Positions 23,238 through 40,055 of a DNA stretch of 64,000 nucleotides are shown piece after piece. Positions within the stretch are counted from its first letter, which is position 1, and each line of letters begins with the position of its first letter. The translations under genes were made by a program, and so were the position numbers. The DNA lies in contig NZ_JAAIVI010000017.1 of the NCBI RefSeq assembly GCF_011008905.1, forward strand, positions 1-64,000, read 5' to 3'. The DNA is from Wenzhouxiangella sp. XN201. Lineage in GTDB: Bacteria > Pseudomonadota > Gammaproteobacteria > Xanthomonadales > Wenzhouxiangellaceae. Below the pieces are notes generated by a model. The model was not told where the DNA came from, did not search any database, and worked only from the letters and a program-made list of their open reading frames with translations.

Positions 23238-23777
23238 TCAGTCTTTCGGGACGGTCTCGGCGGGTGAGTTTCGGGCGGCCCGTACTCGCCAGGCGAAGCG
23301 ACCCGCACGATTGAGCAGAATGCGCAGCGCCAGGGGCAGTTCCTCGAAAGGGAGCCGATCGAGCAGGTTGCGTGTGGTCAAGCCGATGGTGGTATCGCCA
23401 CTGACTTCCAGGCGACGCTGGAAGAACAGCGTGTCGGGATCTTCCATGCGGGCAGCCAGCAGGATGAATTCCACCGCCCGGCCGCGGATGCTGCTGTCGG
23501 CCGGCTCGTCGTCAGCCAGCGTCGTCAGGCGCTGCGTCTCGGCGGTGATGACCCAGCGCAGGTCCATGTCGCTAATCTCGACAGCGAGGCTGCGGCCTTC
23601 CAGGAAATCGAAATCACCGGCAGTGAGCATCTCGCTGAATACCTGGTTCAGAGCCCGGGTCATGGCCTGGCGGCGGATCGGCGGCGGACAGAATCTCAGC
23701 GGCAGTGCGACCAGCCGCGGCGGCGGCAGCCGGCGGGCGATCCGATCGAGCGGGTGGGACAAGGCAGACGCGTTCAT
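23238..23777 (-). CDS. ubiT: UbiT, SCP2-domain factor for O2-independent ubiquinone synthesis
   Basis: 179 residues with a single SCP2 lipid-binding domain (about 40-150; ALNQVFSEMLTAGDFDFLEGRSLAVEISD...). UbiT is thought to bind ubiquinone precursors for the UbiU-UbiV hydroxylases, which are encoded at 52382-54231. The start overlaps the SCO stop as ATGA, so it is the third gene of a cytochrome c-SCO-ubiT unit. It converges with the cyclase gene, 10 bp apart. Confidence 0.85.
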   Translation of the reverse strand: MNASALSHPLDRIARRLPPPRLVALPLRFCPPPIRRQAMTRALNQVFSEMLTAGDFDFLEGRSLAVEISDMDLRWVITAETQRLTTLADDEPADSSIRGRAVEFILLAARMEDPDTLFFQRRLEVSGDTTIGLTTRNLLDRLPFEELPLALRILLNRAGRFAWRVRAARNSPAETVPKD

Positions 23778-24424
23778 GATCGTGACTCCAGCCAGCCGCG
23801 CAGGCCGTCGAACTGCTCGACCATGCGCTGTGGCACGAGCGGCGCCGGCAGGGCGCCGACCATGCGGCCCTGCGGGTCGATGATCATGACCGAGCTGGTG
23901 TGATCGATGCTGCGATTGCCCGCGTCATCGACGAAGGGTTCGAACTTCACGGCCATCGAATCGGCCAGGGTGCGGATGCTCGAATCAGGTCCGTGCAGGC
24001 CGATCAGGTTCGGGTCGTACCAGGCCAGGTAATCCGCCATTTCTGAAGGGTCATCGTTTTCGGGATCGACGGAGACGAACAGGTACTGTGGTTCCTCGCC
24101 CTGGTTCTCAACCAGCAGACGGCGCATTTCACGCATGGCGTGCAGGCTGGTCGGGCAGACGTCGGGACAGTCCAGGTAGCCAAAGAACATCAGGCTCCAC
24201 TGTCCTTCAAGATCTTTCTGACCGAAGGCTCGGCCGTGTTGGGTCTTGAGGGGCACGTCGGCCAGCGGCATCGGCTCGGGCCACATCACGGCCCGCACGT
24301 CCGGCGGGGCCTGGCCCCAGGCCGTGCTGGCGGGCGGAGTTCGCCCGACCAGCAATCCGGCGGCCAGGGTCACGGCCATGAGGCCGATCAGCGTAGCGGC
24401 GCGCTTGCCGTGCCGTACCATCAT
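23774..24424 (-). CDS. SCO1/SenC-type copper chaperone
   Basis: 216 residues with an N-terminal signal/anchor helix (12-28). Thioredoxin fold with the copper-binding CPDVCP motif (GYLDCPDVCPTS, about 92) and the distal His in IDHTSSVMIID. It delivers copper to the CuA centre of heme-copper enzymes or acts as a thiol reductase. Two in-frame ATGs (24424, 24421) share the GGGAAG ribosome site. It lies between cytochrome c and ubiT; a second, tethered SCO is at 29053. Confidence 0.92.
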   Translation of the reverse strand: MMVRHGKRAATLIGLMAVTLAAGLLVGRTPPASTAWGQAPPDVRAVMWPEPMPLADVPLKTQHGRAFGQKDLEGQWSLMFFGYLDCPDVCPTSLHAMREMRRLLVENQGEEPQYLFVSVDPENDDPSEMADYLAWYDPNLIGLHGPDSSIRTLADSMAVKFEPFVDDAGNRSIDHTSSVMIIDPQGRMVGALPAPLVPQRMVEQFDGLRGWLESRS

Positions 24425-24453: not shown

Positions 24454-24801
24454 TCAGTCGTCGAGACTGCGGATGTAGGCGACCAGGTTGTCTACATCTT
24501 CATCGCTCAGGTGACCGAAGGCGGTCATCATCGGCGACAGGCCGACGGCCGCGCCACCCTTGGAGATGACGGTGGCAATGTGCTCGTCATCGACCGATTC
24601 CTGCCACTCGCTGTCGCTCATGTTGCGCGGCTTGGGGTTGAGCGCGGCCGAAGCCGGGCCGTCGCCCTGGCCGGTCGGGCCGTGGCAGGTGGCGCAAAGC
24701 TGCTTGAACTTGGCCTCACCGGCCTCTGCATCGGCCGCCAGGGCGGAATGGGCCAGCAGGCTGCCGGCGGACAGAACCAGGGCGGTAATCAGAACACGCA
24801 T
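24454..24801 (-). CDS. Periplasmic class I cytochrome c
   Basis: 115 residues. A cleavable signal (1-22, HSALA-AD) precedes a single heme-binding CATCH motif at about 36-40; the axial Met is probably in SPMMTAFGHLSDED near 90. Mature size about 10 kDa. AGGAG seven bases before the ATG supports the start. Likely electron donor to the CuA-containing enzyme at 30787-33059 or product acceptor of the cytochrome b complex. Confidence 0.93.
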   Translation of the reverse strand: MRVLITALVLSAGSLLAHSALAADAEAGEAKFKQLCATCHGPTGQGDGPASAALNPKPRNMSDSEWQESVDDEHIATVISKGGAAVGLSPMMTAFGHLSDEDVDNLVAYIRSLDD

Positions 24802-24918: not shown

Positions 24919-25386
24919 TTACTGCGGATCAAGCCGCTCCAACCAGCGCTCAAGGTGCTCGACGTGCTCGCCTTCTTCCTCGGCAAACATCTGGGCAAGC
25001 TCCTGGACGCGGTCCGAGCGGGTCTGGCCGGCCACGGCCGAGTAGAAGTCACAGGCGCGCCGCTCGGTCTCGAGCGCCATGTCGATGGCGCCCCTGGATG
25101 TAATGTCGGCCAGCGGCGCCAGCGCCAGTGGGTTCTCCGGGCTGTGCGCGTCCGGCCATTGCGGGTCGTCGGCGCGCGGATCGAACTCGCGGCCGAGCTC
25201 TTCGGACTGCAAACCCTGAACTTCGGCCAGGTGCAGGCGTGAGAATTCGCCGAATTTCGCGAACATCTCGGCCACTTCATCGTGCCCATCGGCTCGCATG
25301 GCTTCGGCCAACCGGGCATAACCGTCGGCGGCGTCGGATTCGAGTTTGGCCGCCAGGCGCAGGAATCTTTCCAGGTCGTCGATCAT
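24919..25386 (-). CDS. Ferritin-like/rubrerythrin-type diiron protein
   Basis: 155 residues forming a four-helix bundle. Glu/His metal-ligand spacing is seen in ETERRACDFYSAVA and EEEGEHVEHLERWL (the ExxH class motif), with more acidic ligands in the first half. No rubredoxin domain. The ATG at 25386 has GGAGG nine bases upstream and overlaps the stop of the small membrane protein (ATGA). Being in the oxidase operon suggests peroxide or NO handling, or iron supply; this is inference. Confidence 0.8.
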   Translation of the reverse strand: MIDDLERFLRLAAKLESDAADGYARLAEAMRADGHDEVAEMFAKFGEFSRLHLAEVQGLQSEELGREFDPRADDPQWPDAHSPENPLALAPLADITSRGAIDMALETERRACDFYSAVAGQTRSDRVQELAQMFAEEEGEHVEHLERWLERLDPQ

Positions 25387-25586
25387 GGGTTCGTACCTCC
25401 CTGGTTCAACAGGAATGGGGTAAGCCACTGCGCTAGCAACAGCAGCCCCAGGAAAATCAGAAAGAACCACAGCGTTCGCCACCAGCCCAGCGGCCGGCCA
25501 TGGCGCCGCTCCAGAGCCATCACGGCATGGTGGGCCAGGAAGTAGGCCAGCAGGAGGAATACGCCAAATAGCAGGACTTCAAGCAT
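25383..25586 (-). CDS. Small two-helix membrane protein
   Basis: 67 residues with two hydrophobic helices (about 2-24 and 39-60) separated by a basic loop (ERRHGRPLGWWR). No known family recognised. Its start overlaps the end of the heme-copper-like gene and its stop overlaps the ferritin-like start. It is therefore cotranslated within the respiratory operon and may be an accessory subunit. Confidence 0.7.
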   Translation of the reverse strand: MLEVLLFGVFLLLAYFLAHHAVMALERRHGRPLGWWRTLWFFLIFLGLLLLAQWLTPFLLNQGGTNP

Positions 25587-26976
25587 GGTGCGCGACCTTG
25601 TCGATGTGGACCTCGACGGCGGGGGCGCGCGACAAAAGCGCGCGGGCGAAAGCGATCAGGAACAGGATGCCGCCGATGATGGCGATCAGCCCGCCGGCGC
25701 CCATCACCGCCATGCCGCCGATCTGCGCCAGGCCTTCGAGACCCTGGGCGGCGCCGGCGGTCTTGCGCTGCACGCCGTGGCCGCCGGAGAAGGCCAGGCC
25801 GATAACGTGCAGGACCTGACCCGTGCCGTAAACCCACGGCATCAGGCGGGTCAGGCGCGCACTGGCCGGGGCGAAGCCGAAGCGCGGCAACAGGTACAGC
25901 GCCAGGGCCATGAAGGTGAGCGTGATCGCGACGATGCAGCCGTGGTAATGAGCCGGCACGATGGTGTTGGACTCGTCGATCAGGAAACCCAGCGCGCCAC
26001 CGACCCCGAACAGGCCGATCGAGAACAGCAATGCGGTGCGCAGGCCGCGCTGACGCGCATCGGTCGTCCGTTCGCTGCGCGACCAGCCGAGCAAAAGCGC
26101 CAGGCCCAGTGGCCCGGCGGCCAGGCCGCCGGCGGCCGCCATCAGCCAGATGAAGAAAGTGCGGTGGCCGGGACTGCTGACCTCGAAGTACAGGTAGCCC
26201 CATACGGCGAGAAAGGCCGGCAGCACGCCAGCCAGCAGCAAGCCCAGCACCAGGCGCGGCCCGATGAGAATCCGAAGGCCGGCCGCGGCCGCAAGCCACA
26301 GCCAGGCGACCAGCATGAACTGCACCCAGGCGAACTGCAGCACATGCCCGCCGCCCCAGAACAGCACCTCGTAGTACTGGGCACCATCCAGCCAGGGCGG
26401 CAACGCAAAAAGCGACCACAGCAGCAGCCCGCCGGCCAGTACCAGGGCAATCACGCCGGTCTGAACGCCAAAACGCATCACGCCGGCTTCGGCCGGCCAG
26501 ACGCTGCCCGGCAGGGGATTGAACAGCGAGCGCAGGCTGCTCACCAGCACGCCGATCCCGAACACCGACAGACCGGCAAGGAAAAGAGTGTTGTCGAGCA
26601 CGGGCACATAGTTGCTCATGATCGCTTCACCCGGCCTGAATGGCGATGCAGCCAGCATGATCGAACCGGCAATCACCAGTCCCAGGCCGAGCCAGGCGCT
26701 GCGGCGAGCCGCGGGCGTGCTGACCAGGGTCCACATCACCGCACCGAAGGCTGCGAACCACACCAGCACGGAGAAATCCACGTGTACGACGATGGCCAGA
26801 TGAAAGAAGTTCTTGAGCGGAAACAGCTGTTCCACGCCGGGCGTCCGCGAGGCGACGATCAGGATCACGAACAATCCCGAGATCAGCAGGGCGCCGACGG
26901 CGGTCAGCAGCCAGGCCCGCGCCAGCCGGCCGCGGAAATCCGACGGGACTTCCAGGTTCCAGTGCGATGGGGTCAT
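25579..26976 (-). CDS. Divergent heme-copper oxidase subunit I-like protein
   Basis: 465 residues, about 12 membrane helices. Recognisable ligand regions: helix II HLAIVVHVDF (H59/H65), helix VI GGGHVLQF (H211), helix X PAHYHG (H343/H345). The CuB histidine pair of the VII-VIII loop is GHR (H271, then Arg) rather than HH, and there is no Tyr four residues after H211 (it is F215). It most resembles CcoN-type chains and would often be labelled cbb3 subunit I. No CcoO/CcoP partners are present. It may have lost CuB and serve electron transfer, or be a novel reductase. Confidence 0.75.
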   Translation of the reverse strand: MTPSHWNLEVPSDFRGRLARAWLLTAVGALLISGLFVILIVASRTPGVEQLFPLKNFFHLAIVVHVDFSVLVWFAAFGAVMWTLVSTPAARRSAWLGLGLVIAGSIMLAASPFRPGEAIMSNYVPVLDNTLFLAGLSVFGIGVLVSSLRSLFNPLPGSVWPAEAGVMRFGVQTGVIALVLAGGLLLWSLFALPPWLDGAQYYEVLFWGGGHVLQFAWVQFMLVAWLWLAAAAGLRILIGPRLVLGLLLAGVLPAFLAVWGYLYFEVSSPGHRTFFIWLMAAAGGLAAGPLGLALLLGWSRSERTTDARQRGLRTALLFSIGLFGVGGALGFLIDESNTIVPAHYHGCIVAITLTFMALALYLLPRFGFAPASARLTRLMPWVYGTGQVLHVIGLAFSGGHGVQRKTAGAAQGLEGLAQIGGMAVMGAGGLIAIIGGILFLIAFARALLSRAPAVEVHIDKVAHHA

Positions 26977-27482
26977 GAGGATTCCTCCGTTTCGAGCGAC
27001 ACGCCGTCGTCACCGATCTCGATCAGCGCTGATTCGCCGGCTTTCAGGTTCAGGTTCATTTCGCGCTCGAGGTCAAAGCCTGCGGTGCGCGGTGTATCGG
27101 CCAGCCGGATCGTGACGGTGTAGCGTCCGGGCTCGACCGGGAAGTACTCGAGGTAATAGGCCCGGCCACCGTCGGACAGGCCGGCCGCGTCCACCGCATC
27201 GGCGACCAGCAGCTCGCCGTCGAGCATCAGCTCGAAGCGGGTCGGCGCCCGCTCGCGGCCGCAGACTTCCGATACGCGTCGGGTCGGCGGCAGTTCGGCG
27301 CGCTCGGCCGCACTCAGTTGCCTGCAGGGCTCGAGCCGCTCGGACAAATGCGCCATCGACACCTTGATCAGTGCCTGTCCGGGATCGTAGGGCGAAAACG
27401 AAGGCCCCTGGCCGAACAACCCAATCAGCGTGGCCAGCACCGCCCAGGTCAGGCCCTGTCCCGCGACTGCCAGCGCCTTCAT
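26973..27482 (-). CDS. Membrane-anchored protein of the respiratory operon, unknown
   Basis: 169 residues. An N-terminal hydrophobic helix (about 8-25) precedes a periplasmic region with SPYDPGQALIKVSMAHLSE and two cysteines (C53, C74), ending in a beta-rich domain (FPVEPGRYTVTIRLADT). No family recognised. Both ends overlap neighbours as ATGA, so it is tightly coupled to the cytochrome b fusion and the heme-copper-like subunit. An accessory or assembly subunit is likely. The longer frame from 28142 is rejected. Confidence 0.7.
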   Translation of the reverse strand: MKALAVAGQGLTWAVLATLIGLFGQGPSFSPYDPGQALIKVSMAHLSERLEPCRQLSAAERAELPPTRRVSEVCGRERAPTRFELMLDGELLVADAVDAAGLSDGGRAYYLEYFPVEPGRYTVTIRLADTPRTAGFDLEREMNLNLKAGESALIEIGDDGVSLETEESS

Positions 27483-29056
27483 GTGCCCGTCCTCCGCAGG
27501 GCCGATCCCGGCGCTTCCGGGGTCGCGGCCTGGTCGAGTCCAGCGGCAAATCCGGCCAATCTTCGGCTCAGGGCTTTTTCCTGCCCGGGCTTGCCCCAGT
27601 AAGTGAACAGGCGTTCCCGCGGCACGCGTTTGCGGAGGCCAGGCGGGCGTTCGCGGTCGATGCGTTCCTGGGTCCAGCGCTCGCCCAGTCGATGGTGACA
27701 GTCGCAGTCGGCGCAGCCGGCAATCGCCACGCCGGCATACCCGCTGTTGCGCAAGGCATAGTCGATGCCGGCCGGCGGTAGCAGGCCGACGCAGGGCAGC
27801 ACCATGCTGTGGGCCGTCCCGGTCTCGGTCTTCTCCACATCCACGCCGTGGTCGCAGCCGAAGACCAGGATGCGTTCGCCGGTCTGGCCCGTGTCGCGGG
27901 CGCGGTCGAGTTCTGTACGGAAGTCGTCCATGGTGAAGTGCGGCAACTCGATGCCGGTCGTCAACGGCGCGCGTTGACGAAACGGCGACGATGAGGGGCA
28001 TGAGCCAGTGCAGATACCGCAGGACACGCAAAGCGAGGCGTTCACTTTGGCTTCGAGCTCGAAATTGCGTCCGTCGGTTCGCGGCACCATGTCGATGGCG
28101 CCGTAGGGGCAGTCCTCGGCACAAAAGCCGCATCCCGTGCAATCGGGAAGATGAACCTCGGCCACCGGCTGGCGCCGGCGCGGCAGAATCCAGGGCAGTG
28201 CGGCCAGCAGCAGGGTGCCCGTGGTTCCGGCCAGCCAGATCGTGCCCGGCGACGTCACCGACTGCAGCGGAAAGACGGCCAGGTAGAACCAGTCGATGGC
28301 CAGTACGCCGGGCACGGCGTCGAGGTCGGCCGGCGCATGGCTGGTCACCGGAATGATCAGCGAAAGCACCATCAGGCTGGCGAGGCTGCCGAGCATGAGT
28401 TTGCTCGGCGGGTGAATGCGTGGGTAGCGCACGCGCAGCAGATGAAACCAGATGCCCAGTACCAGCACGATGGGCAGGCCGACGAGGTGAATGAAACCGA
28501 TCAGCGTGAACAGTCGGCCGCTGACGGTTTCATTGCTGACGAAATTGCTCCCCATCGGATCGCTGAAGATCGGCAGCCAGTCGAGCAGTTGCGCGCTGGC
28601 CGTGGCAACCCAGGCAGCGAGTTGGTCCCACACCATCCAGTAGCCGGAAATGCCGAAGATGAGCACGATCCAGATCAGCGGCATGCCGGTCAGCCAGGAG
28701 AACCAGCGCACCCCGGTATGGCGCATGCGGACCAGCTCGCGCAGCATATGCAGTGCCAGCAGAAGCACGGCGGCGTCCGAGCTGTAGCGGTGCAGGCTGC
28801 GTATGAGGCCGCCGATGACCCACTGCTCGTGGGTGATGGCTTCGACTGAATGCCAGGCACCCTCGAGATTCGTGCTGTAGAACACGAACAGGTAGATGCC
28901 GGTGACCAGCGCGATGTAGAAGCAGTAGATGGCCAGCGCACCGAGGTGGTGGAAGGGATTCGTGGCTGCGCCAAAGGCGTTCGATAGCAGCGACTCGCCA
29001 CGGGCCAGCGCACGGGCCGGCCAGGCCGGTCGCGGTCGGACCTGGCCGGAACTCAT
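27479..29056 (-). CDS. Cytochrome b6-like / 2x[4Fe-4S] / MvhD fusion protein
   Basis: 525 residues. Part one is a four-helix cytochrome b with His pairs H89/H103 and H190/H205, the 14/15 spacing of cytochrome b6 di-heme ligands. Three further helices run to about 290. Part two is a ferredoxin with two complete CxxCxxCxxxCP clusters (C306-C316, C343-C353). Part three is an MvhD/HdrD-type iron-sulfur domain (FGCDHG, LPCVGLLPPAGIDYAL, AGCADCDCHH). No Rieske protein or cytochrome c1 is present. It probably exchanges electrons between quinone and an iron-sulfur or thiol partner; the direction is unknown. Overlaps both neighbours by ATGA. Confidence 0.88.
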   Translation of the reverse strand: MSSGQVRPRPAWPARALARGESLLSNAFGAATNPFHHLGALAIYCFYIALVTGIYLFVFYSTNLEGAWHSVEAITHEQWVIGGLIRSLHRYSSDAAVLLLALHMLRELVRMRHTGVRWFSWLTGMPLIWIVLIFGISGYWMVWDQLAAWVATASAQLLDWLPIFSDPMGSNFVSNETVSGRLFTLIGFIHLVGLPIVLVLGIWFHLLRVRYPRIHPPSKLMLGSLASLMVLSLIIPVTSHAPADLDAVPGVLAIDWFYLAVFPLQSVTSPGTIWLAGTTGTLLLAALPWILPRRRQPVAEVHLPDCTGCGFCAEDCPYGAIDMVPRTDGRNFELEAKVNASLCVSCGICTGSCPSSSPFRQRAPLTTGIELPHFTMDDFRTELDRARDTGQTGERILVFGCDHGVDVEKTETGTAHSMVLPCVGLLPPAGIDYALRNSGYAGVAIAGCADCDCHHRLGERWTQERIDRERPPGLRKRVPRERLFTYWGKPGQEKALSRRLAGFAAGLDQAATPEAPGSALRRTGT

Positions 29057-29856
29057 GTTGACCTCCGACGCCTGAAAAGTTCGCGCCCGGTCCAGCCGCC
29101 GATGAGCAGCAGGAAGGCGCCGCCCAGGCCCAGGCCCACGAACATCGAGTAGTCGAAGTAGTAGCGATCGCCGCGGGCGTCGTAGACGGTGCAGAACAAG
29201 CGGATTCGTTCTCCGATGCTGGCCAGCAGGCCCTGTTCGCTTTTCGGCCGGCGCCAGACCAGGTCCTTGAGCGGCTCGACCAACTGCGGCGCTTTGAAGG
29301 TTTCGCCGTAGACCTGGCGGTAGAGCGAGCCGTCGCGATCGAGCAGGCTCAACTGCACGGTGTGGTCGAAGCCGCGCGGGCTCGGTGTGTACACGAAACC
29401 GAGTTCGGCAATCAGCTGTTCGAGTGCTTCGTTGCTTTCGGCGACGACGAAGCGCCAGTCGGGATCATTGACGCCATGACGGCGGGCATGATTGGCCATC
29501 GATTCGGGCGTATCGACACCGTGATCGAAGCCGATGGTGAGCATACCGAAGCTGTCCGTGCCCATAGCCTCGCGCGCGGTCTTTACCACGCCGTCGAGGT
29601 AGCGTGTGGTCACACTGCATGAGTGCGCGCAACCGGTGTAGATGAGGCTGATGCCCAGCGGTCGTTCGAGCAAGTCGTGCAGCTTGAGCCGCTCGCCGTT
29701 GCTGTCAATCAGGGTCAGATCGGAGACGCGGTTGCCGATGGCGGCCTGACTGATCTCGAGTGCGTCACCGCGGGCAGCGTTGCTGTCGGCGGCCGACAGC
29801 ACGAGCGCAAACGCCAGCAGTGCCGGGACGAGTCTTCCGGGGGTGATCCGGTTCAT
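29053..29856 (-). CDS. SCO-like protein with C-terminal membrane anchor
   Basis: 267 residues. Signal peptide (1-28), SCO thioredoxin fold with copper-site CAHSC (about 76, CxxxC) and distal His in FDHTVQLSLLD, then a C-terminal helix (about 238-258) with a basic tail. Differs from the SCO at 23774 in topology and in having CAHSC rather than CPDVC. Probably matures the CuA site of the subunit at 32514. Adjacent to ctaB and overlapping the cytochrome b fusion. Confidence 0.88.
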   Translation of the reverse strand: MNRITPGRLVPALLAFALVLSAADSNAARGDALEISQAAIGNRVSDLTLIDSNGERLKLHDLLERPLGISLIYTGCAHSCSVTTRYLDGVVKTAREAMGTDSFGMLTIGFDHGVDTPESMANHARRHGVNDPDWRFVVAESNEALEQLIAELGFVYTPSPRGFDHTVQLSLLDRDGSLYRQVYGETFKAPQLVEPLKDLVWRRPKSEQGLLASIGERIRLFCTVYDARGDRYYFDYSMFVGLGLGGAFLLLIGGWTGRELFRRRRST

Positions 29857-30783
29857 TCATGGCACCGCGTGCATGGCGAACAACCCGGCCAGCAACAGGC
29901 CGAGCTGGATGAGGGAGGCCTTGAACGCCGTCATTGCGCGTGACGGCGAGGGATCGCGCGCCATCAGCAGCGTCGTCCAGGCCAGCCAGGCCGCACCGGT
30001 TCCGGCGAGCAGCCAGACCAGTCCCGAGCCGCTGCGCGCGGTCAGCCACAGCGTGGCGCCGACCAGGAGGGCGGTGTTGACCAGGTTCCAGCGAACGGCC
30101 GTAGCGATGCCGCGGGTGACCGGCAGCATGGGTACGCCGGCACGCCGGTAGTCATCGGCGATGACGACTGCCAGCGACCAGAAATGCGAAGGCGTCCAGA
30201 GAAACAGCACGGCGGTGAGCAGCATCACGTCCGGATCGGCAATCCGGCCGGTGGCGGCGGCGCCGGCGAGCACCGCCCAGCTTCCGGCGGCGCCACCGAT
30301 GACGATGTTCCAGTCGTTGCGACGCTTGAGCCAGACGGTATAGACCAGCGCGTAGGTGAGTGCGCCGGCAGCCACGAACAGACCGCAGGCCGGGTTGAAC
30401 CACCAGGCGCCCAGGGCTGAGCCGGCGGCGATCATGGCCAGGAAGGTCACCGGCCAGGCCCGATGCGCCTGCAGGGTGCCGTTGACGAAGGGCCGCTTGC
30501 GGGTTCGCCCCATGACCGCGTCGATGTCGCGGTCCCAGTAGTGATTGAAGGCGCCGGCACCGGAGGCCGCCAGCAGGACGGCGAGGGCGAGAACGGCCGT
30601 GTCGGCCGCTACTGGCCAGCCGCCGCCGGCCAGCACGGCACCGCCCAGGGCTGACAGCGTGATCGCCGCCCCGATGCGGATCTTGAACAGCGACAGTGCG
30701 ATCGCAAGCAGGCCCGGCCGGGGCCGCACCCCTTCGGGGGCGATCGCCGGCAGAGCCTGTGCTTGTGCGTCCTGGTGCGCCAT
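29857..30783 (-). CDS. ctaB: Protoheme IX farnesyltransferase
   Basis: UbiA-family prenyltransferase of 308 residues with about nine membrane helices, making heme O. The first Asp-rich motif is NHYWDRDIDAVMGRTRKRP (about 96-114). With CtaA at 34132 the locus encodes a full heme A pathway, so at least one heme-copper enzyme here likely carries a modified heme. It starts three bases after the large catalytic subunit stop and ends directly against the SCO gene. Confidence 0.95.
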   Translation of the reverse strand: MAHQDAQAQALPAIAPEGVRPRPGLLAIALSLFKIRIGAAITLSALGGAVLAGGGWPVAADTAVLALAVLLAASGAGAFNHYWDRDIDAVMGRTRKRPFVNGTLQAHRAWPVTFLAMIAAGSALGAWWFNPACGLFVAAGALTYALVYTVWLKRRNDWNIVIGGAAGSWAVLAGAAATGRIADPDVMLLTAVLFLWTPSHFWSLAVVIADDYRRAGVPMLPVTRGIATAVRWNLVNTALLVGATLWLTARSGSGLVWLLAGTGAAWLAWTTLLMARDPSPSRAMTAFKASLIQLGLLLAGLFAMHAVP

Positions 30784-30786
30784 GGC

Positions 30787-32493
30787 TTAGCTGAACCGCC
30801 AGACCGAAGCCAGGTAACCGTAGTTGATAAAGAAGTAGACGACGAAGATCAGCAACAGGAACATCGCCAGCACGAAGGTACCCGGTGCCGGGAAGCCCTT
30901 TACGCCCAGGCCCGCATGGCTGTGGCCGGACAGCGACTCGGCCGGTCCGCGCAGGATGCCCGGGCGGGTACTCGAGTACTCGGCCGGGCTGGTCTTCTGG
31001 CCGAACAGCACCGTACCGACGATCACGACCACAAAGATCATGCCACCGAGCACGGCGATGACCGCGCTGATGCCGTTGAGCGCCATCATGGTGTAGGCCA
31101 TGCCCGGATAGGTCCACTCGAAGGCCGAACCGGTAAAGGCCATGTCCCAGTGGCGGCGCGAAACGCCCAGGGTGCCCGCGCCCATCATGAAGAAGGTCTG
31201 TAGCGCGGTACCGATGCCGAACAGCCAGGGCTGCCACTTGGCCAGGCCGGGCATGAACAGCTTGCGCCGGAACAGCACCGGTACCAGCCACAGGCTCATG
31301 GCCATGAAGGCGAGCGTGGTGCCGAGCACCACCGTGGCGTGGAAGTGACCGGGCACGTAGATGGTGTTGTGGATCAGGAAGTTGATCTGCTCACTGCCCA
31401 TCACCACGCCCGAGATGCCGCCGATGAAGCCGAAGCCGACCAGCGACAGGAACATGCCGGAGAACACCGGGTTGCCCCAGGGCGCCTTGCGGAGCCACTC
31501 GAACAGGCCCCTATTGTGGCCTTTCTCGCGCTGGGCGACCTCGATCGAGCCGGGTACGGTCAGGCCGTGGACCAGGCTGGCGAGTACCGCCAGGTACATC
31601 ACGTAGCTGGTGTTGAAGATCTTCCATTCGGTGCTCAGGCCCGGGTCGCCGAGCAGGTGATGGGCCGAGGCGACCGAGATGAACAGGATGTAGAGGAAGA
31701 AGGCGCCGCGGCTGACCTTCTCCGACATCGGCCTGGCGCCGAACACGATCGCGGCGACCGCATACCAGACCGACACGTGTGCAGCGACGTTGATCTGCTG
31801 CGAGGTATGGCCCAGACCCCACCAGACCAGGCGGTACATCAGCGGATCGATCTCGCTGATGTAGCCGATCGACCACAGCCAGGTCGGAATCAGGATGATG
31901 GCGCCGCAGGCGATCGTGAATACCGCCAGGATGGCGGCCGTTAGTGCGCCGAAAGTGACCAGTGGAATCGAGCCCTCGTAGGTTTTCTCGTCGCGGGCAA
32001 TGACGAGTGTGCCGAAGAACATGAATACGCCGATCAAGGCGCCGACGGCAAACAGGATCAGGCCGAAGTAGAAGCCGGGCGCGGCTGGCATGGGGACGTA
32101 GGAGGTCATCATCACGCTCGACGAGCCGGCGATGATGGCCCAGGATGTGATGGCTGCACCACCGATCATGAGCCCGAAGGCCACCCAGCCCAGTCTCGGT
32201 GTTGCGATGCGGCACCTGAGCAACACCGATGAGCAGAAATACAGCAGCGCGATCTCGAAGAACAGGATCCAGACCAGTAGCATCACGACGCCGTGGCCGG
32301 TCAGTACAGTGTAAAAGTCCTGGGCGTTGAGAATCTGCACCGCCGGCCAGCGCGTCAGCGCGACCAGCAGGCCGAGCAGGCCGCCGACGGCCAGGAAGAC
32401 CACCGCGGCGACGGCATTGGCCTTGATCAGGTTTTCTGCCGGGCGGTGGAACACGAGCCCGGATTCCGGGCAGGTACGAAATTGGGGTTGCAT
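30787..32493 (-). CDS. Heme-copper oxidase/NO reductase catalytic subunit
   Basis: 568 residues, about 14 membrane helices. Ligands seen: H67 in GHGVVM (low-spin heme), H229 in GLGHTSQQ plus H278/H279 (CuB), H383/H385 in PGHFH (hemes). The HPEVY-type cross-link tyrosine is replaced by Gln (Q233). The cbb3-type Tyr six residues before the HH pair is also absent (Ile). Loss of this Tyr is typical of NO-reducing members of the superfamily, but the chain has a CuA partner and heme A genes. ATG 32493 has GAGGGAA upstream; the longer frame to 32760 runs into the next gene. Confidence 0.9.
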   Translation of the reverse strand: MQPQFRTCPESGLVFHRPAENLIKANAVAAVVFLAVGGLLGLLVALTRWPAVQILNAQDFYTVLTGHGVVMLLVWILFFEIALLYFCSSVLLRCRIATPRLGWVAFGLMIGGAAITSWAIIAGSSSVMMTSYVPMPAAPGFYFGLILFAVGALIGVFMFFGTLVIARDEKTYEGSIPLVTFGALTAAILAVFTIACGAIILIPTWLWSIGYISEIDPLMYRLVWWGLGHTSQQINVAAHVSVWYAVAAIVFGARPMSEKVSRGAFFLYILFISVASAHHLLGDPGLSTEWKIFNTSYVMYLAVLASLVHGLTVPGSIEVAQREKGHNRGLFEWLRKAPWGNPVFSGMFLSLVGFGFIGGISGVVMGSEQINFLIHNTIYVPGHFHATVVLGTTLAFMAMSLWLVPVLFRRKLFMPGLAKWQPWLFGIGTALQTFFMMGAGTLGVSRRHWDMAFTGSAFEWTYPGMAYTMMALNGISAVIAVLGGMIFVVVIVGTVLFGQKTSPAEYSSTRPGILRGPAESLSGHSHAGLGVKGFPAPGTFVLAMFLLLIFVVYFFINYGYLASVWRFS

Positions 32494-32513: not shown

Positions 32514-33059
32514 TCAGTTGTCGACGACGTAGATGCGGCTCATCATCGTGTGGTGCATGATTCCGCAGTACTCGTTGCACACCACGGCGTACTCGCCGGG
32601 CTCGGTCGGCGTGACGTTGAGTACCATGTCGTAGCCGGGCAGGACCTGGAAGTTGATGTTGATCGGTTGAATCGACAGGCCGTGCTGCCAGTCGGCCGAG
32701 GAAACATGGAAACGGTATGTTTCGCCAGCCTCGAGTTCGAGAATCGGGTACCAGTCCCACAGGCGCGCGAGCAGGTAGACGTCGCCGCCGGCGGGCGGGC
32801 GCACGACCGGCACCTGGCGGTCGGTCTCGTGCCGCACGGTGTATTCCTCGACGAACTCGTTAACCTTCGCGACGTAATCCTGGGGATTGACCCGGTAAGC
32901 TTCGCCGGAATAGTTCTGCTCGCCGTAGACATGCCAGTAGGGCATGAAGAAGAACATGATCAGGCACCAGACGAGCGCGATGGCGATCCAGACGATCTCG
33001 ACACGGTCGACCGGCTGTTTCCACCACACGCGTCGGGCAGGCGGTTGAATGGCACTCAT
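32514..33059 (-). CDS. CuA-containing subunit II of the heme-copper enzyme
   Basis: 181 residues. One N-terminal membrane helix (about 20-40) is followed by a cupredoxin domain with a complete CuA site: H126, then CNEYCGIMHHTM (C161, E163, C165, H169, M172). It takes electrons from a periplasmic donor, probably the cytochrome c at 24454. AGGGAG precedes the ATG. Second gene of the leftward operon headed by the small subunit. Confidence 0.94.
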   Translation of the reverse strand: MSAIQPPARRVWWKQPVDRVEIVWIAIALVWCLIMFFFMPYWHVYGEQNYSGEAYRVNPQDYVAKVNEFVEEYTVRHETDRQVPVVRPPAGGDVYLLARLWDWYPILELEAGETYRFHVSSADWQHGLSIQPININFQVLPGYDMVLNVTPTEPGEYAVVCNEYCGIMHHTMMSRIYVVDN

Positions 33060-33074: not shown

Positions 33075-33260
33075 TCAGCCGATCGGGACGGTGACGATGT
33101 TCATCACGCCCCAGATGATGTAGGTCACGGTGGGAATCGTGACGCCGAGAAACAGCAACAGGAACGGATTGTCGAGAATGCGCTGCATGACCGGCAGGCG
33201 TTCCTGGTCTTGTTCCGGTTCGCGGGCTTCGGCGCCCCGGTCGTTTTGTGAATCGCTCAT
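33075..33260 (-). CDS. Small single-helix subunit at the head of the operon
   Basis: 61 residues. A charged soluble start (ten or more acidic and basic residues) precedes one membrane helix (about 32-55). First gene of the operon, 15 bp before subunit II. Likely a small structural subunit like those of ba3-type enzymes; no family signature is visible. ATG 33260 is preceded by GAGGACATCATG. The longer frame to 33380 would start inside the promoter and is rejected. Confidence 0.75.
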   Translation of the reverse strand: MSDSQNDRGAEAREPEQDQERLPVMQRILDNPFLLLFLGVTIPTVTYIIWGVMNIVTVPIG

Positions 33261-34131: not shown

Positions 34132-35199
34132 ATGAATCTGATCGAACGACATCATCAGCGGCGCATCGGCATCTGGTTGCTGATCTGCTGCTTCGTGCTC
34201 TTCTCGCTCGTGATGCTGGGCGGCGCCACCCGGCTGACCGGCTCGGGCCTGTCCATGGTCGAGTGGGAGCCGGTCACCGGCGTGATTCCACCGATGAGCG
34301 AAGCACGCTGGATGCGTGAATTCGAAGCCTACCGGGCCAGCCCCGAGTACCAGAAGGTCAACCGCGGCATGTCGCTCGACGCCTTCAAGGTGATCTACTG
34401 GTTCGAATTCGGGCATCGCCTGCTGGCGCGCTCGCTCGGCCTGGTCTTCGCCCTGCCACTGGCCTGGTTCTGGTGGCGTGGCTGGATCCCCGGGCGGCTG
34501 CGCTGGCCCCTGCTGGGCATCTTCGGCCTGGGGGCCCTGCAAGGCTGGATGGGCTGGTATATGGTCCAGAGCGGCCTGGTCGACATTCCGCGCGTGAGTC
34601 CCTACCGCCTGGCCGCGCACCTGAGCCTGGCGTTGATCATCTTCGCCTTCATGTTCCGGCTCGCCCTGGGCCTGCTGATGCCGGCCGAGCACCGGCCGCA
34701 TCCGATGCGGCGCTGGACGATCACGTTGCTGGCCATGACCGGCCTGACCATCTTCGTCGGCGCCTTCGTCGCGGGATTGCGTGCCGGCTTCGTCTACAAC
34801 GATTTTCCGTTGATGGCCGGGCAGTGGATTCCCGACGGCTTCCTCGGCCTGGCGCCGTTGTGGCGCAATTTCTTCGAGAACCCCGCCACGGTGCAGTTCA
34901 TGCATCGCATACTGGCCCTGACCACCCTGGCCCTGGCGATTGTCGCGTGGTGGCGGCAGCGAAGCCATTCACTGGATGTCGGCGCCCGCCGCGCCTTCGA
35001 CATCCTGCTGACCATCGTTGCCGCGCAGGCGGCACTGGGCATTGCCACCCTGATGCTCTACGTCCCGGTGGTGCTCGGCACCCTGCACCAGGGTCTGGCC
35101 GTGTTGGTGCTGGGGGCGGTAATCGCTGCCGATTACCGGGTCAGCCATGCGCCTGGAGACACGCCCCATAGCGGGCGCCTCGCGCCGGCACCCGCCTGA
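34132..35199 (+). CDS. ctaA: Heme A synthase
   Basis: Cox15/CtaA family, 355 residues, eight membrane helices. Signatures: GGATRLTGSGLSMVEW with the catalytic-site region (about 30-45), EFGHRLLAR (about 86), and the second-half FMHRILAL and TLHQGLA histidines. Converts heme O to heme A, completing the pathway begun by CtaB. Heme A is needed for aa3/ba3-type enzymes and not for cbb3 or classical cNOR. Confidence 0.95.
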   Translation: MNLIERHHQRRIGIWLLICCFVLFSLVMLGGATRLTGSGLSMVEWEPVTGVIPPMSEARWMREFEAYRASPEYQKVNRGMSLDAFKVIYWFEFGHRLLARSLGLVFALPLAWFWWRGWIPGRLRWPLLGIFGLGALQGWMGWYMVQSGLVDIPRVSPYRLAAHLSLALIIFAFMFRLALGLLMPAEHRPHPMRRWTITLLAMTGLTIFVGAFVAGLRAGFVYNDFPLMAGQWIPDGFLGLAPLWRNFFENPATVQFMHRILALTTLALAIVAWWRQRSHSLDVGARRAFDILLTIVAAQAALGIATLMLYVPVVLGTLHQGLAVLVLGAVIAADYRVSHAPGDTPHSGRLAPAPA

Positions 35200-38074: not shown

Positions 38075-38551
38075 ATGACCAGAAAGATCACCCTGATTCT
38101 CATCCTGGCCCTGGCCGGTACGATGACCGCCCATGCTCAGGATCAATCCCGGGAACACGATCGCGAACACCACGCCGCGCACGGTGGGGCCGAGCTTGAC
38201 CTGACTCGACCGGAGTCGGGCAAGTGGGCCAGCGACGAGTCGCTCAGGCAGGGTATGAGCGAACTGCGCTCGGCCTTCAAGCCGCATCACGCTGCCTATA
38301 AAGCAGGCAACTTCGACGCCGGCCAGGCCGCCGAACTGGCCGACAGCGTCGAGGAGAACGTGAACTTCATGTTCGCCAACTGCCGCCTGCCGGCTGATGC
38401 CGACGCTGAGCTGCACAAGCTGCTGGCCGCCGCCCTGGGCGCGGCCCAGTCATTGCGTGATTCCGACGACCCGCACGAGGGCCTGCACCAGCTTCACCAG
38501 GTGCTCAAGGCCTACCCCGAGTTCTTCGATCACCCGGGCTGGCGCGGCTGA
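38075..38551 (+). CDS. Secreted helical protein, unknown
   Basis: 158 residues. Signal peptide (1-21, AHAQD) and a His-rich segment (REHDREHHAAHGG) precede an all-helical domain with conserved-looking HHAAYKAGNF and NCRLPADADAELHKLL (one Cys). The fold suggests a four-helix bundle resembling cytochrome c' without CxxCH. It follows the decarboxylase by 28 bp, with AGGAGG upstream, and overlaps the end of convergent nnrS by 22 bp. The histidine cluster suggests metal binding; function unassigned. Confidence 0.75.
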   Translation: MTRKITLILILALAGTMTAHAQDQSREHDREHHAAHGGAELDLTRPESGKWASDESLRQGMSELRSAFKPHHAAYKAGNFDAGQAAELADSVEENVNFMFANCRLPADADAELHKLLAAALGAAQSLRDSDDPHEGLHQLHQVLKAYPEFFDHPGWRG

Positions 38552-39684
38552 CGAAAGCGCAGCAACAGGGCGAAGAGCAGCAGCAGCGCAGAAGACCAGG
38601 CGGCTGCCGCCAGCAGCAGGCCGCCGTCACTGGCGCCACCGACCAGGCGCGACAACGCGGCCAGCGAGACCAGCGCGGTCATGGCGGCAAAGGATCTGCC
38701 GAACTGTTCGAGCGGAATGCGCAGGCGCAGCAGGCGCGTGCGCAGCATGATGCCGGTCGTCAGGGTGCCGAGGGCGCCGACCGTGATGGCATGGGTCGCC
38801 ACGCCGGGCGGCAGTCCGATTGCGAAACCGCGCCCGGCACCGAGCAGTATCAGCCCCGCCCCCAGCCAGACGTAGCCGATGCCCAGGCCGATCAGGTCGA
38901 TCCGCCGCCAGCATTGCCATAAGCGCCAGCGAGCCAGGCGCACGAGGGCCAGCGTGCCGGCGAGCATCAGCAGCAAGCCTTGCAGGGGGGCGAGCATCGG
39001 CAGGATTCCGGTCACGGCGGCGCCGATCATCGCCAGCAGGATGGCGCCCTCGATGCGCGGCTGCACGCGCGCCTCCATGCTGCCGCCGCTGCGTTCGATG
39101 GCCCCCGCGGCAGCCGGGGCGATCAATCGGCCTCCGAAGAAAAGCATCAGCATGGCGAACAGCACCACCGCCTCGCCCAGCAGCACGTAGCTCCCGAACC
39201 CACCGGCGTGAAAAGTCAGCAACTGAAAGCCGGCCGCCGCCGCGCAGATCGCCAGAACCAGCGGGCCGGTGAGACGGTTGCGCCACTTCTTGGCCGCCTT
39301 CATGAAGCGTGGCGCGGCGGTCGCCGCCACCAGGCCGGCAAAGCCGACGTTGAACGCAATCGCGGCCAGACTGCCGGGAAAGAACAGGAAAGCCAGGCGT
39401 GCGCCCAGCCAGAGGGCCATCATCAGGGCAAGCCGCGGTGCAGACGCCCGGTTGATCAGGAATCCCGCAACGACCGCCAGCGCGTAGCCGAACAGCAGTT
39501 CGTGAGCGTGGCCGGCGGGCGTGCGCAGGCCGGGCAGAGTCGGCAGCAAGCCGGTCCAGCCGAGCACGAACGCCGGAACGCTGAGCGCTCCGTAGAGTGC
39601 CGCCAGGGGAAAGAACCGGACCTCGGTTATTGCCCGGGCGGGTCTTGCGGCCTGGCCGGGCTGGACATGCGAGGAATCTGCCAT
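38530..39684 (-). CDS. nnrS: NnrS family heme-copper membrane protein
   Basis: 384 residues, about 12 membrane helices. Family signatures GHAHELLFGY (about 60) and THAITVGALGTLTTGIMLR (about 290) contribute heme/copper ligands. NnrS relieves NO stress in other proteobacteria. The start at 39684 is immediately preceded by an NsrR-like operator with no ribosome site, so translation may be leaderless or begin slightly downstream; the longer frame to 39780 is rejected. Divergent from the small Cys protein at 39756. Confidence 0.92.
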   Translation of the reverse strand: MADSSHVQPGQAARPARAITEVRFFPLAALYGALSVPAFVLGWTGLLPTLPGLRTPAGHAHELLFGYALAVVAGFLINRASAPRLALMMALWLGARLAFLFFPGSLAAIAFNVGFAGLVAATAAPRFMKAAKKWRNRLTGPLVLAICAAAAGFQLLTFHAGGFGSYVLLGEAVVLFAMLMLFFGGRLIAPAAAGAIERSGGSMEARVQPRIEGAILLAMIGAAVTGILPMLAPLQGLLLMLAGTLALVRLARWRLWQCWRRIDLIGLGIGYVWLGAGLILLGAGRGFAIGLPPGVATHAITVGALGTLTTGIMLRTRLLRLRIPLEQFGRSFAAMTALVSLAALSRLVGGASDGGLLLAAAAWSSALLLLFALLLRFRQPRQPG

Positions 39685-39707
39685 AATATGTATTTTACAT
39701 GCATCTA
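39685..39707. promoter_or_regulatory. NsrR-like operator abutting nnrS
   Basis: Plus-strand halves AATATGTATTT and ACATGCATCTA, separated by one T, match the NsrR consensus (GATGYATTT-N-AAATRCATC) at 16 of 18 core positions. It lies directly before the nnrS ATG and 49 bp before the divergent gene. NnrS is a classic NsrR target in gammaproteobacteria. Confidence 0.7.
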
Positions 39708-39755
39708 GATATCTACAGGCACGAGTGTCACGAGCGGCGCCGGGAGTAACAAGCC

Positions 39756-40055
39756 ATGCCGAATCAGATCGAAGACCCATTCAAGGCGTGGGAATGCACG
39801 GGCTGCGGCCGCATCGAAGCGCCACAACCCTGTCTGGGTATTTGCCAGGATCGAGCGGTGGAACTGGTGCATGCCGAGGCCTATCGGCAACTTCAGGACG
39901 ACAACGCGAGAATGCGCGAGCTGATCCTGCGCCTGGCGGGCACGAGTCCGCGTGAGGGTCAGTGGGAAGCCGGCTACCGTGCTGTACAGGCGCGTGCAGC
40001 CGAACTGCTGGAACGTCTCGAACGCTACGACGTGTCCGAACCGGTGTCAGAATAG
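39756..40055 (+). CDS. Small cysteine-cluster protein divergent from nnrS
   Basis: 99 residues. The N-terminal segment WECTGCGRIEAPQPCLGIC has CxxC-x8-CxxxC spacing (residues about 14-30), suggesting zinc or Fe-S binding. The remainder is a coiled-coil-like helix (about 40-92). No established family recalled. Start supported by GGGAG nine bases upstream. It shares its regulatory spacer and the NsrR-like operator with nnrS, so NO-linked expression is likely. Confidence 0.75.
   Translation: MPNQIEDPFKAWECTGCGRIEAPQPCLGICQDRAVELVHAEAYRQLQDDNARMRELILRLAGTSPREGQWEAGYRAVQARAAELLERLERYDVSEPVSE

Follow-up and report, generated by a model that had tools for sequence, protein, structure and literature searches.

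A cytochrome b-ferredoxin-MvhD fusion protein encoded in an eNOR operon probably feeds electrons to the nitric oxide reductase

The window, i.e., the whole stretch of 64,000 nucleotides of Wenzhouxiangella sp. XN201 DNA analyzed here, contains a gene cluster in which small61, CoxB, CoxA, CtaB, and Sco1 are encoded, in this order and on the same strand, upstream of a 525-residue protein that we call P0001. Downstream of P0001 follow orf169, P0002, small67, a rubrerythrin-like protein, a c-type cytochrome, a second Sco protein, and an SCP2 protein. Overlaps of 4 to 8 bases are found at five junctions (Sco1/P0001, P0001/orf169, orf169/P0002, P0002/small67, and small67/rubrerythrin-like). The features are as follows.

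33075-33260, minus strand: small61, a conserved one-helix protein, upstream of CoxB
32514-33059, minus strand: CoxB, CuA subunit II
30787-32493, minus strand: CoxA, by its motif the eNOR subunit I (GHTSQQ, with Gln replacing Tyr)
29857-30783, minus strand: CtaB-like UbiA prenyltransferase of the heme O synthase type (PF01040)
29053-29856, minus strand: Sco1/SenC protein (PF02630)
27479-29056, minus strand: P0001, 525 aa, cytochrome b (helices A-F) followed by two [4Fe-4S] ferredoxin motifs and an MvhD domain (Pfam, AlphaFold, profile and fold comparison, alignment)
26973-27482, minus strand: orf169, an N-terminal membrane anchor and a domain with two conserved Cys, of no Pfam family, predicted as a beta-sandwich from the natural fusion of locus L023
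25579-26976, minus strand: P0002, a COX1-like subunit with its heme His kept and the TM7 CuB His pair absent
25383-25586, minus strand: small67, a small hydrophobic protein of no family
24919-25386, minus strand: rubrerythrin-like protein (PF02915)
24454-24801, minus strand: small c-type cytochrome (CATCH)
23774-24424, minus strand: second Sco/SenC protein (PF02630)

A CtaA gene of the heme A synthase type also lies close to the operon (34132-35199). Fourteen loci share a cluster of hemerythrin-like proteins (L010:10240-10665, by Pfam on the L010 member), in place of which the window operon has the rubrerythrin-like gene at 24919-25386.

The signature residues of the operon oxidase were compared across its relatives. 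The Gln of the CoxA motif is present in 30/30 full-length eNOR rows, as are the three CuB His and the heme His, while both ba3 rows (2/2) carry Tyr at this position; the CuA ligands of CoxB (H126, C161, C165, H169, and M172) are found in 33/33 rows. According to the available parts of PMC8756737, Gln in place of the cross-linked Tyr defines subunit I of eNOR, an enzyme formerly named ba3-a1, whose operon has SCO (available parts of PMC6431628 and PMC8879329). Because of the Gln signature of CoxA and the CuA ligands of CoxB, the cluster is, judged by its sequence, the operon of eNOR, which is a nitric oxide reductase of the B family of heme-copper enzymes, and NO would be the substrate of the encoded enzyme. 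A cytochrome cd1 gene is present in the same genome, and a NirK-like match falls below the curated cut-off. Elsewhere this genome holds what we take, from active-site motifs, to be aa3-, cbb3-, cNOR-, and bc1-type genes.

The product of 25579-26976 had been described by the initial annotation as a heme-copper-like subunit translationally coupled to its neighbors. The coupling overlaps are real, but the true heme-copper enzyme is CoxA: the TM7 CuB His pair is missing from P0002 in 19/19 relatives, which rules out P0002 as a catalytic oxidase and makes it look CuB-less. Relatives of P0002, separated from CoxA by E-value and place, were counted in 29/34 genomes of the class that carry the P0001 fusion. 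P0002 relatives also adjoin GHG-type eNOR without the fusion (L105 and L107).

P0001 itself proved to be the fusion that had been proposed from the reading frame, a di-heme cytochrome b with b6-type spacing (14 and 15) joined to two [4Fe-4S] motifs, as confirmed by Pfam, an alignment of 49 relatives, and AlphaFold. The Pfam matches to Cytochrome_B (8e-20, residues 33-211), Fer4_7 (3.3e-10, 306-355), and FlpD/MvhD (2.1e-7, 417-507) all exceed their curated cut-offs, FlpD with 31.4 bits against 22.3. The heme His pairs are H89/H103 (spacing 14) and H190/H205 (spacing 15), two full CxxCxxCxxxC motifs start at C306 and C343, and the MvhD Cys are C401, C422, C448, and C453. The full-length alignment comprised 48 loci and the window copy, leaving out of 63 reading frames the rows of 430 aa or less, five rows with an NAD(P)H-reductase head, and L054, which is HdrA-like and has no cytochrome b. 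In this set, the four heme His are invariant (49/49), the eight ferredoxin Cys are kept in 49/49 and also in 13/13 Chloroflexota copies, and MvhD C401, C422, and C448 are invariant (49/49), with C453 in 48/49 and one gap. The AlphaFold model is confident (pLDDT 87.6, pTM 0.85), and its residues 30-295, corresponding to helices A to F, superpose on bc1-type cytochrome b with a Z score of 25.2 and an rmsd of 2.4 over 258 aligned residues. When the family profile was compared with solved structures, cytochrome b6 came out best (E 5e-36), the middle part matched polyferredoxin-type chains, and the end matched MvhD (5odc_D, E 2.5e-14). In Foldseek and VIA searches with the model, the cytochrome b part fills the matches listed. 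Together, the invariant ligands, the domain matches, and the confident model place the P0001 fusion far beyond chance. By its fold and by analogy with bc1, the chain following helix F would be cytoplasmic, beside heme bH.

At residues 255 to 258, P0001 carries D-W-F-Y, which we take to occupy the place of PEWY in bc complexes. D255 is found in 49/49 relatives, W256 in 47/49, and Y258 in 46/49; among the Chloroflexota copies, Asp255 is kept in 13/13 and W256 in 1/13. The replacement of W256 in 12/13 Chloroflexota copies and in 2/49 others means that this p-side motif is incompletely kept. The invariance of Asp255 suggests a p-side quinone site, so that quinol input or a bifurcating mode is possible. 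No Rieske-like motif was found in the window (regular expression, six frames, open frames of at least 90 aa), and Pfam revealed no Rieske family among the scanned neighbor proteins. The initial annotation had noted that neither a Rieske nor a cytochrome c1 gene is nearby; the former absence stands for the window, but the cluster does include a c-type cytochrome gene (24454-24801).

MvhD-type iron-sulfur domains are best known from methane-producing microbes. The C-terminal domain of P0001 had been called MvhD/HdrD-like; the MvhD half of this label agrees with the FlpD match above cut-off, and an HdrD-like domain is ruled out, the Pfam match being FlpD/MvhD. P0001 also resembles HdrA2-type chains through a match to NF040770. 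Heterodisulfide reductase, named in the initial annotation as a usual acceptor of electrons from MvhD-type domains, is no general partner of the P0001 family: HdrA2-like matches (E <= 1e-30) occur in 14/34 carriers, none above the curated cut-off, and the window genome contains no HdrA2-like gene at E <= 1e-30, which rules out HdrA as the partner of P0001 in this genome.

The distribution of the family was then examined. One scan of genome contigs yielded 53 P0001 loci spanning Gamma-, Beta-, Alpha-, and Deltaproteobacteria, Chloroflexi, and archaea (several Hydrothermarchaeota). The proposal that a quinone-type cytochrome b bears an MvhD head, with the order of the surrounding genes conserved, was upheld. 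In a class-level search of 369 genomes (family threshold E <= 1e-40), the fusion was found in 34 genomes, the eNOR motif filtered as GH[STP]SQQ in 34, and both in 32, for a Fisher p of 2e-41 that ignores relatedness and includes a motif filter chosen post hoc. This filter dropped 10/46 motif places with another peptide; without it, 43 genomes hold the motif and 33/43 have the fusion. Both genes lie within 12 kb of each other on one strand in 25 of the 32 double carriers, on one contig but 15-18 kb apart and on opposite strands in 2, and on different contigs in 5. Three of the four exceptions are at a contig edge: the contig of G264 ends just past CoxA, that of G259 starts inside CoxA with the rest of the operon intact, and that of G215 ends inside Sco1, so its eNOR is out of view. 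In the fourth, G045, the motif lies inside no oxidase. Cytochrome cd1 matches occur in 31/34 carriers versus 0/14 control genomes, a comparison with these 14 controls rather than with a class-wide background.

A search of a plasmid collection returned one P0001 match; it lies on a plasmid of Defluviimonas, where the protein is called "cytochrome b N-terminal domain-containing protein." This locus (L112, NZ_CP156080.1 9118-28569) has an eNOR operon that includes the fusion and has a hemerythrin gene after it; its annotation names cbb3-type oxidase, SCO, and cytochrome b proteins. The genome of Ca. Desulfobacillus denitrificans, an organism described in the available parts of PMC8402940 as having no NO reductase (norBC), contains an eNOR operon with the fusion and a GHSSQQIN motif (L043:3854-5536, AP021857.1).

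Among Chloroflexota (201 genomes), the P0001 family was detected in 9, and GHPAQQ-type eNOR in the same 9, with both on one stretch in 8/9. A GHG[AS]QQ motif occurs in 8 other genomes, none of which has the family (0/8); the 6 of these that were examined all match eNOR by tblastn (L104-L109). Four of the 21 motif genomes, with GHR or GHE peptides, were set aside, and two of them, when examined, gave no oxidase match. The notion that every eNOR has the fusion is ruled out by the GHG[AS]QQ group, and the link therefore covers part of eNOR diversity, not all of it. In 4 of the 9 genomes, a second P0001 copy directly follows a ba3-type oxidase with Tyr (GHPLVYFW), and in 3 of these 4 copies a cytochrome c domain forms the C-terminus (PF00034, 25-29 bits, cut-off 21.3).

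The partnership of P0001 with eNOR is well supported, given the near one-to-one occurrence, the operon, and the separate paralogues beside eNOR and ba3. That P0001 is just a genomic neighbor, functionally unlinked to eNOR, would fit the delta-proteobacterial and archaeal loci, where P0001-orf169 lies on the strand opposite CoxAB, and the genomes in which P0001 is on another contig. We nonetheless regard this as very improbable, since co-occurrence (32/34 by 32/34 and 9/9) survives gene-order rearrangement and separate paralogues follow separate oxidases.

Of the 9 Chloroflexota copies that are not paired with ba3, 7 have lost the complete set of four MvhD Cys while keeping the heme ligands and ferredoxin Cys, so the unvarying piece of the head is its ferredoxin part rather than MvhD. 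This loss bears on the reading of P0001 as a plain quinol:cytochrome c/NOR oxidoreductase, with quinol as the sole donor and the Fe-S head as a structural or regulatory remnant. The p-side motif of the cytochrome b and the cytochrome c fusions are in its favor as well, but a remnant would decay, and the eight ferredoxin Cys are kept in every copy of both sets, so we rate this reading as rather unlikely.

Natural fusions and head swaps offer a view of how the module may be arranged. Relatives longer than 620 aa (19/49) include orf169 within the same frame in 15/19 by tblastn, and a separate orf169 match was found in 27/29 of the remaining loci (L029, too short for the set of 49, is excluded from these counts); each of the two conserved Cys of orf169 is present in 42/45 rows. 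The model of the L023 fusion (pLDDT 85.8) shows a helix at 532-555 followed by a beta-rich domain. With this one extra helix after the cytosolic head, the orf169 domain, like the cytochrome c of the ba3-paired copies, would be located in the periplasm, and the cytochrome c fusions support a periplasmic output. In five betaproteobacterial loci, a copy of this cytochrome b bears a [2Fe-2S]-FAD-NAD(P) reductase head, assigned by Pfam in L043, by full-length similarity in L011, L034, and L045, and from two broken pieces in L036. These copies group beside betaproteobacterial ferredoxin-MvhD copies in a midpoint-rooted FastTree phylogeny without support values, and their NAD(P)H-reductase head points to cytosolic input. 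Second matches limited to the cytochrome b part were found in 3/34 genomes of the class search; the one of these that was examined, L062:7631-9511, is a reductase-head cytochrome b far from the eNOR operon.

P0001 could also be an assembly or redox-sensing protein of eNOR, comparable to Sco or CcoG-type ferredoxins, as it sits between Sco1 and other accessory genes in a single copy per operon. An unbroken electron path, however, runs through its pair of hemes, its two ferredoxin clusters, and the fused cytochrome c, and we know of no assembly factor of this size and kind; a role in assembly or sensing thus appears quite unlikely.

P0001 probably feeds electrons to eNOR. More specifically, we find it somewhat probable that P0001 together with orf169 makes up a complex III-like but Rieske-less donor module for eNOR, carrying electrons from the cytosolic head to the periplasm. 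A donor module is the simplest reading of a cytosolic head, two transmembrane hemes, and an outlet on the periplasmic side next to a CuA enzyme, and it is favored by cytochrome cd1, a source of NO, in most carriers and by the presence in the window of NnrS (38530-39780) and a Crp-family regulator. We infer the topology, quinone binding, direction of flow, and physical complex as follows. The cytochrome b part would cross the membrane and hold the two hemes, and the ferredoxin-MvhD head would lie on the cytoplasmic side next to heme bH. Orf169 would have its anchor in the membrane and its domain close to heme bL on the periplasmic side. Electrons would most likely enter at the head from a soluble cytosolic partner, cross bH and then bL, possibly encounter a quinone at the p-side Asp255 site, and exit in the periplasm to the CuA domain of CoxB, directly or via a cytochrome c, after which eNOR would reduce NO to N2O. 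The P0001-orf169 module would be dedicated to eNOR, and the second paralogue of some Chloroflexota to the ba3 oxidase.

Several observations count against the donor reading. No soluble partner of the head was found in this analysis, and electrons moving from the cytosol to the periplasm would do so at the expense of membrane potential. The family is absent from the eight GHG[AS]QQ genomes, so not every eNOR needs P0001, and Chloroflexota copies have lost MvhD Cys (7/9) and W256 (12/13). The two genes are split over contigs in 5/32 genomes and lie far apart on opposite strands in 2/32. The bc1-type cytochrome b and cNOR-like gene of the window genome and the c-type cytochrome of the cluster indicate that cytochrome c might serve eNOR without P0001. 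In addition, PMC8879329, in the parts available, gives reduced cytochrome c as the donor of the ba3-a1/eNOR enzyme.

The direction of flow could also be the opposite of that in the donor module. Quinol would then be oxidized at the p-side Asp255 site, with one electron passing to cytochrome c/CuA and eNOR and the other crossing bL and then bH before it reaches a head of the ferredoxin-MvhD (or NAD(P)+) type, where low-potential reductant would be made. A Q-cycle-type direction is usual for the cytochrome b fold, Asp255 is invariant (49/49 and 13/13 Chloroflexota copies), the head-swapped copies have a pyridine-nucleotide reductase, and a strong oxidant, NO, is available. Such bifurcation remains unlikely in our view, since no Rieske-like motif was found in the window for a protein that would accept the first electron, W256 is lost in most Chloroflexota copies, and with ubiquinone, by reasoning rather than calculation, the second electron would hardly reach the potential of a ferredoxin. 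Just as unlikely is its extension to a novel complex III, a Rieske-free cytochrome b that would send part of the electrons from quinol to an NO (or O2) reductase in the periplasm and part to a low-potential head in the cytosol, such that denitrification would directly drive formation of NAD(P)H or reduced ferredoxin; in genomes with both head types, ferredoxin-MvhD and NAD(P)H reductase, the two cytochromes b may pair as a heterodimer.

The eNOR literature, to the extent covered, treats the enzyme as two-subunit and cytochrome c-fed. The donor module, if real, would place eNOR within a bigger assembly linked to the cytosol or to the quinone pool and would alter the energy balance of reducing NO to N2O. 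P0001 would also serve as a second marker gene for eNOR operons annotated as cytochrome oxidase, and it offers a naturally occurring case for asking whether a bc-type cytochrome b is able to function when no Rieske protein is present. These questions are relevant to how bacteria make the greenhouse gas nitrous oxide, eNOR being little studied. In the available parts of the open-licence literature, which excludes the main eNOR paper, we found no description of P0001 or of its link to eNOR (including PMC8756737, PMC10734462, PMC8879329, PMC12569097, PMC8402940, PMC6431628, and PMC9012536). The initial suggestion of an unrecognized, undescribed system is, within this literature, borne out for the fusion but not for its setting, which can be placed as an eNOR operon by the Gln active site, the CuA subunit, Sco, and CtaB; eNOR is already known, and P0001 is what we call a kind of Rieske-less cytochrome b complex.

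Compared with known systems, CoxA and CoxB share the Gln active site and CuA ligands with eNOR (ba3-a1), and the parts of the eNOR literature covered do not list P0001, orf169, or P0002 among its subunits. P0001 has in common with the cytochrome b of bc1 and b6f complexes the fold, the two b-heme sites, the b6-type His spacing, and the four heme His. Unlike these, it has no helix G onward in the aligned part, D-W-F-Y instead of PEWY, no Rieske-like motif in the window, and a fused cytosolic ferredoxin-MvhD head. The MvhD/FlpD proteins of methanogen hydrogenase-Hdr complexes resemble P0001 in having a four-Cys MvhD domain behind ferredoxin clusters, which in P0001, unlike in MvhD/FlpD, is fused to a membrane cytochrome b. 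In di-heme succinate:quinone and quinol:fumarate oxidoreductases, two transmembrane hemes join a membrane quinone site to cytosolic Fe-S clusters. Although P0001 belongs to another cytochrome b family and its operon encodes no flavin catalytic subunit, these enzymes work in a manner like that proposed here for the P0001 module.
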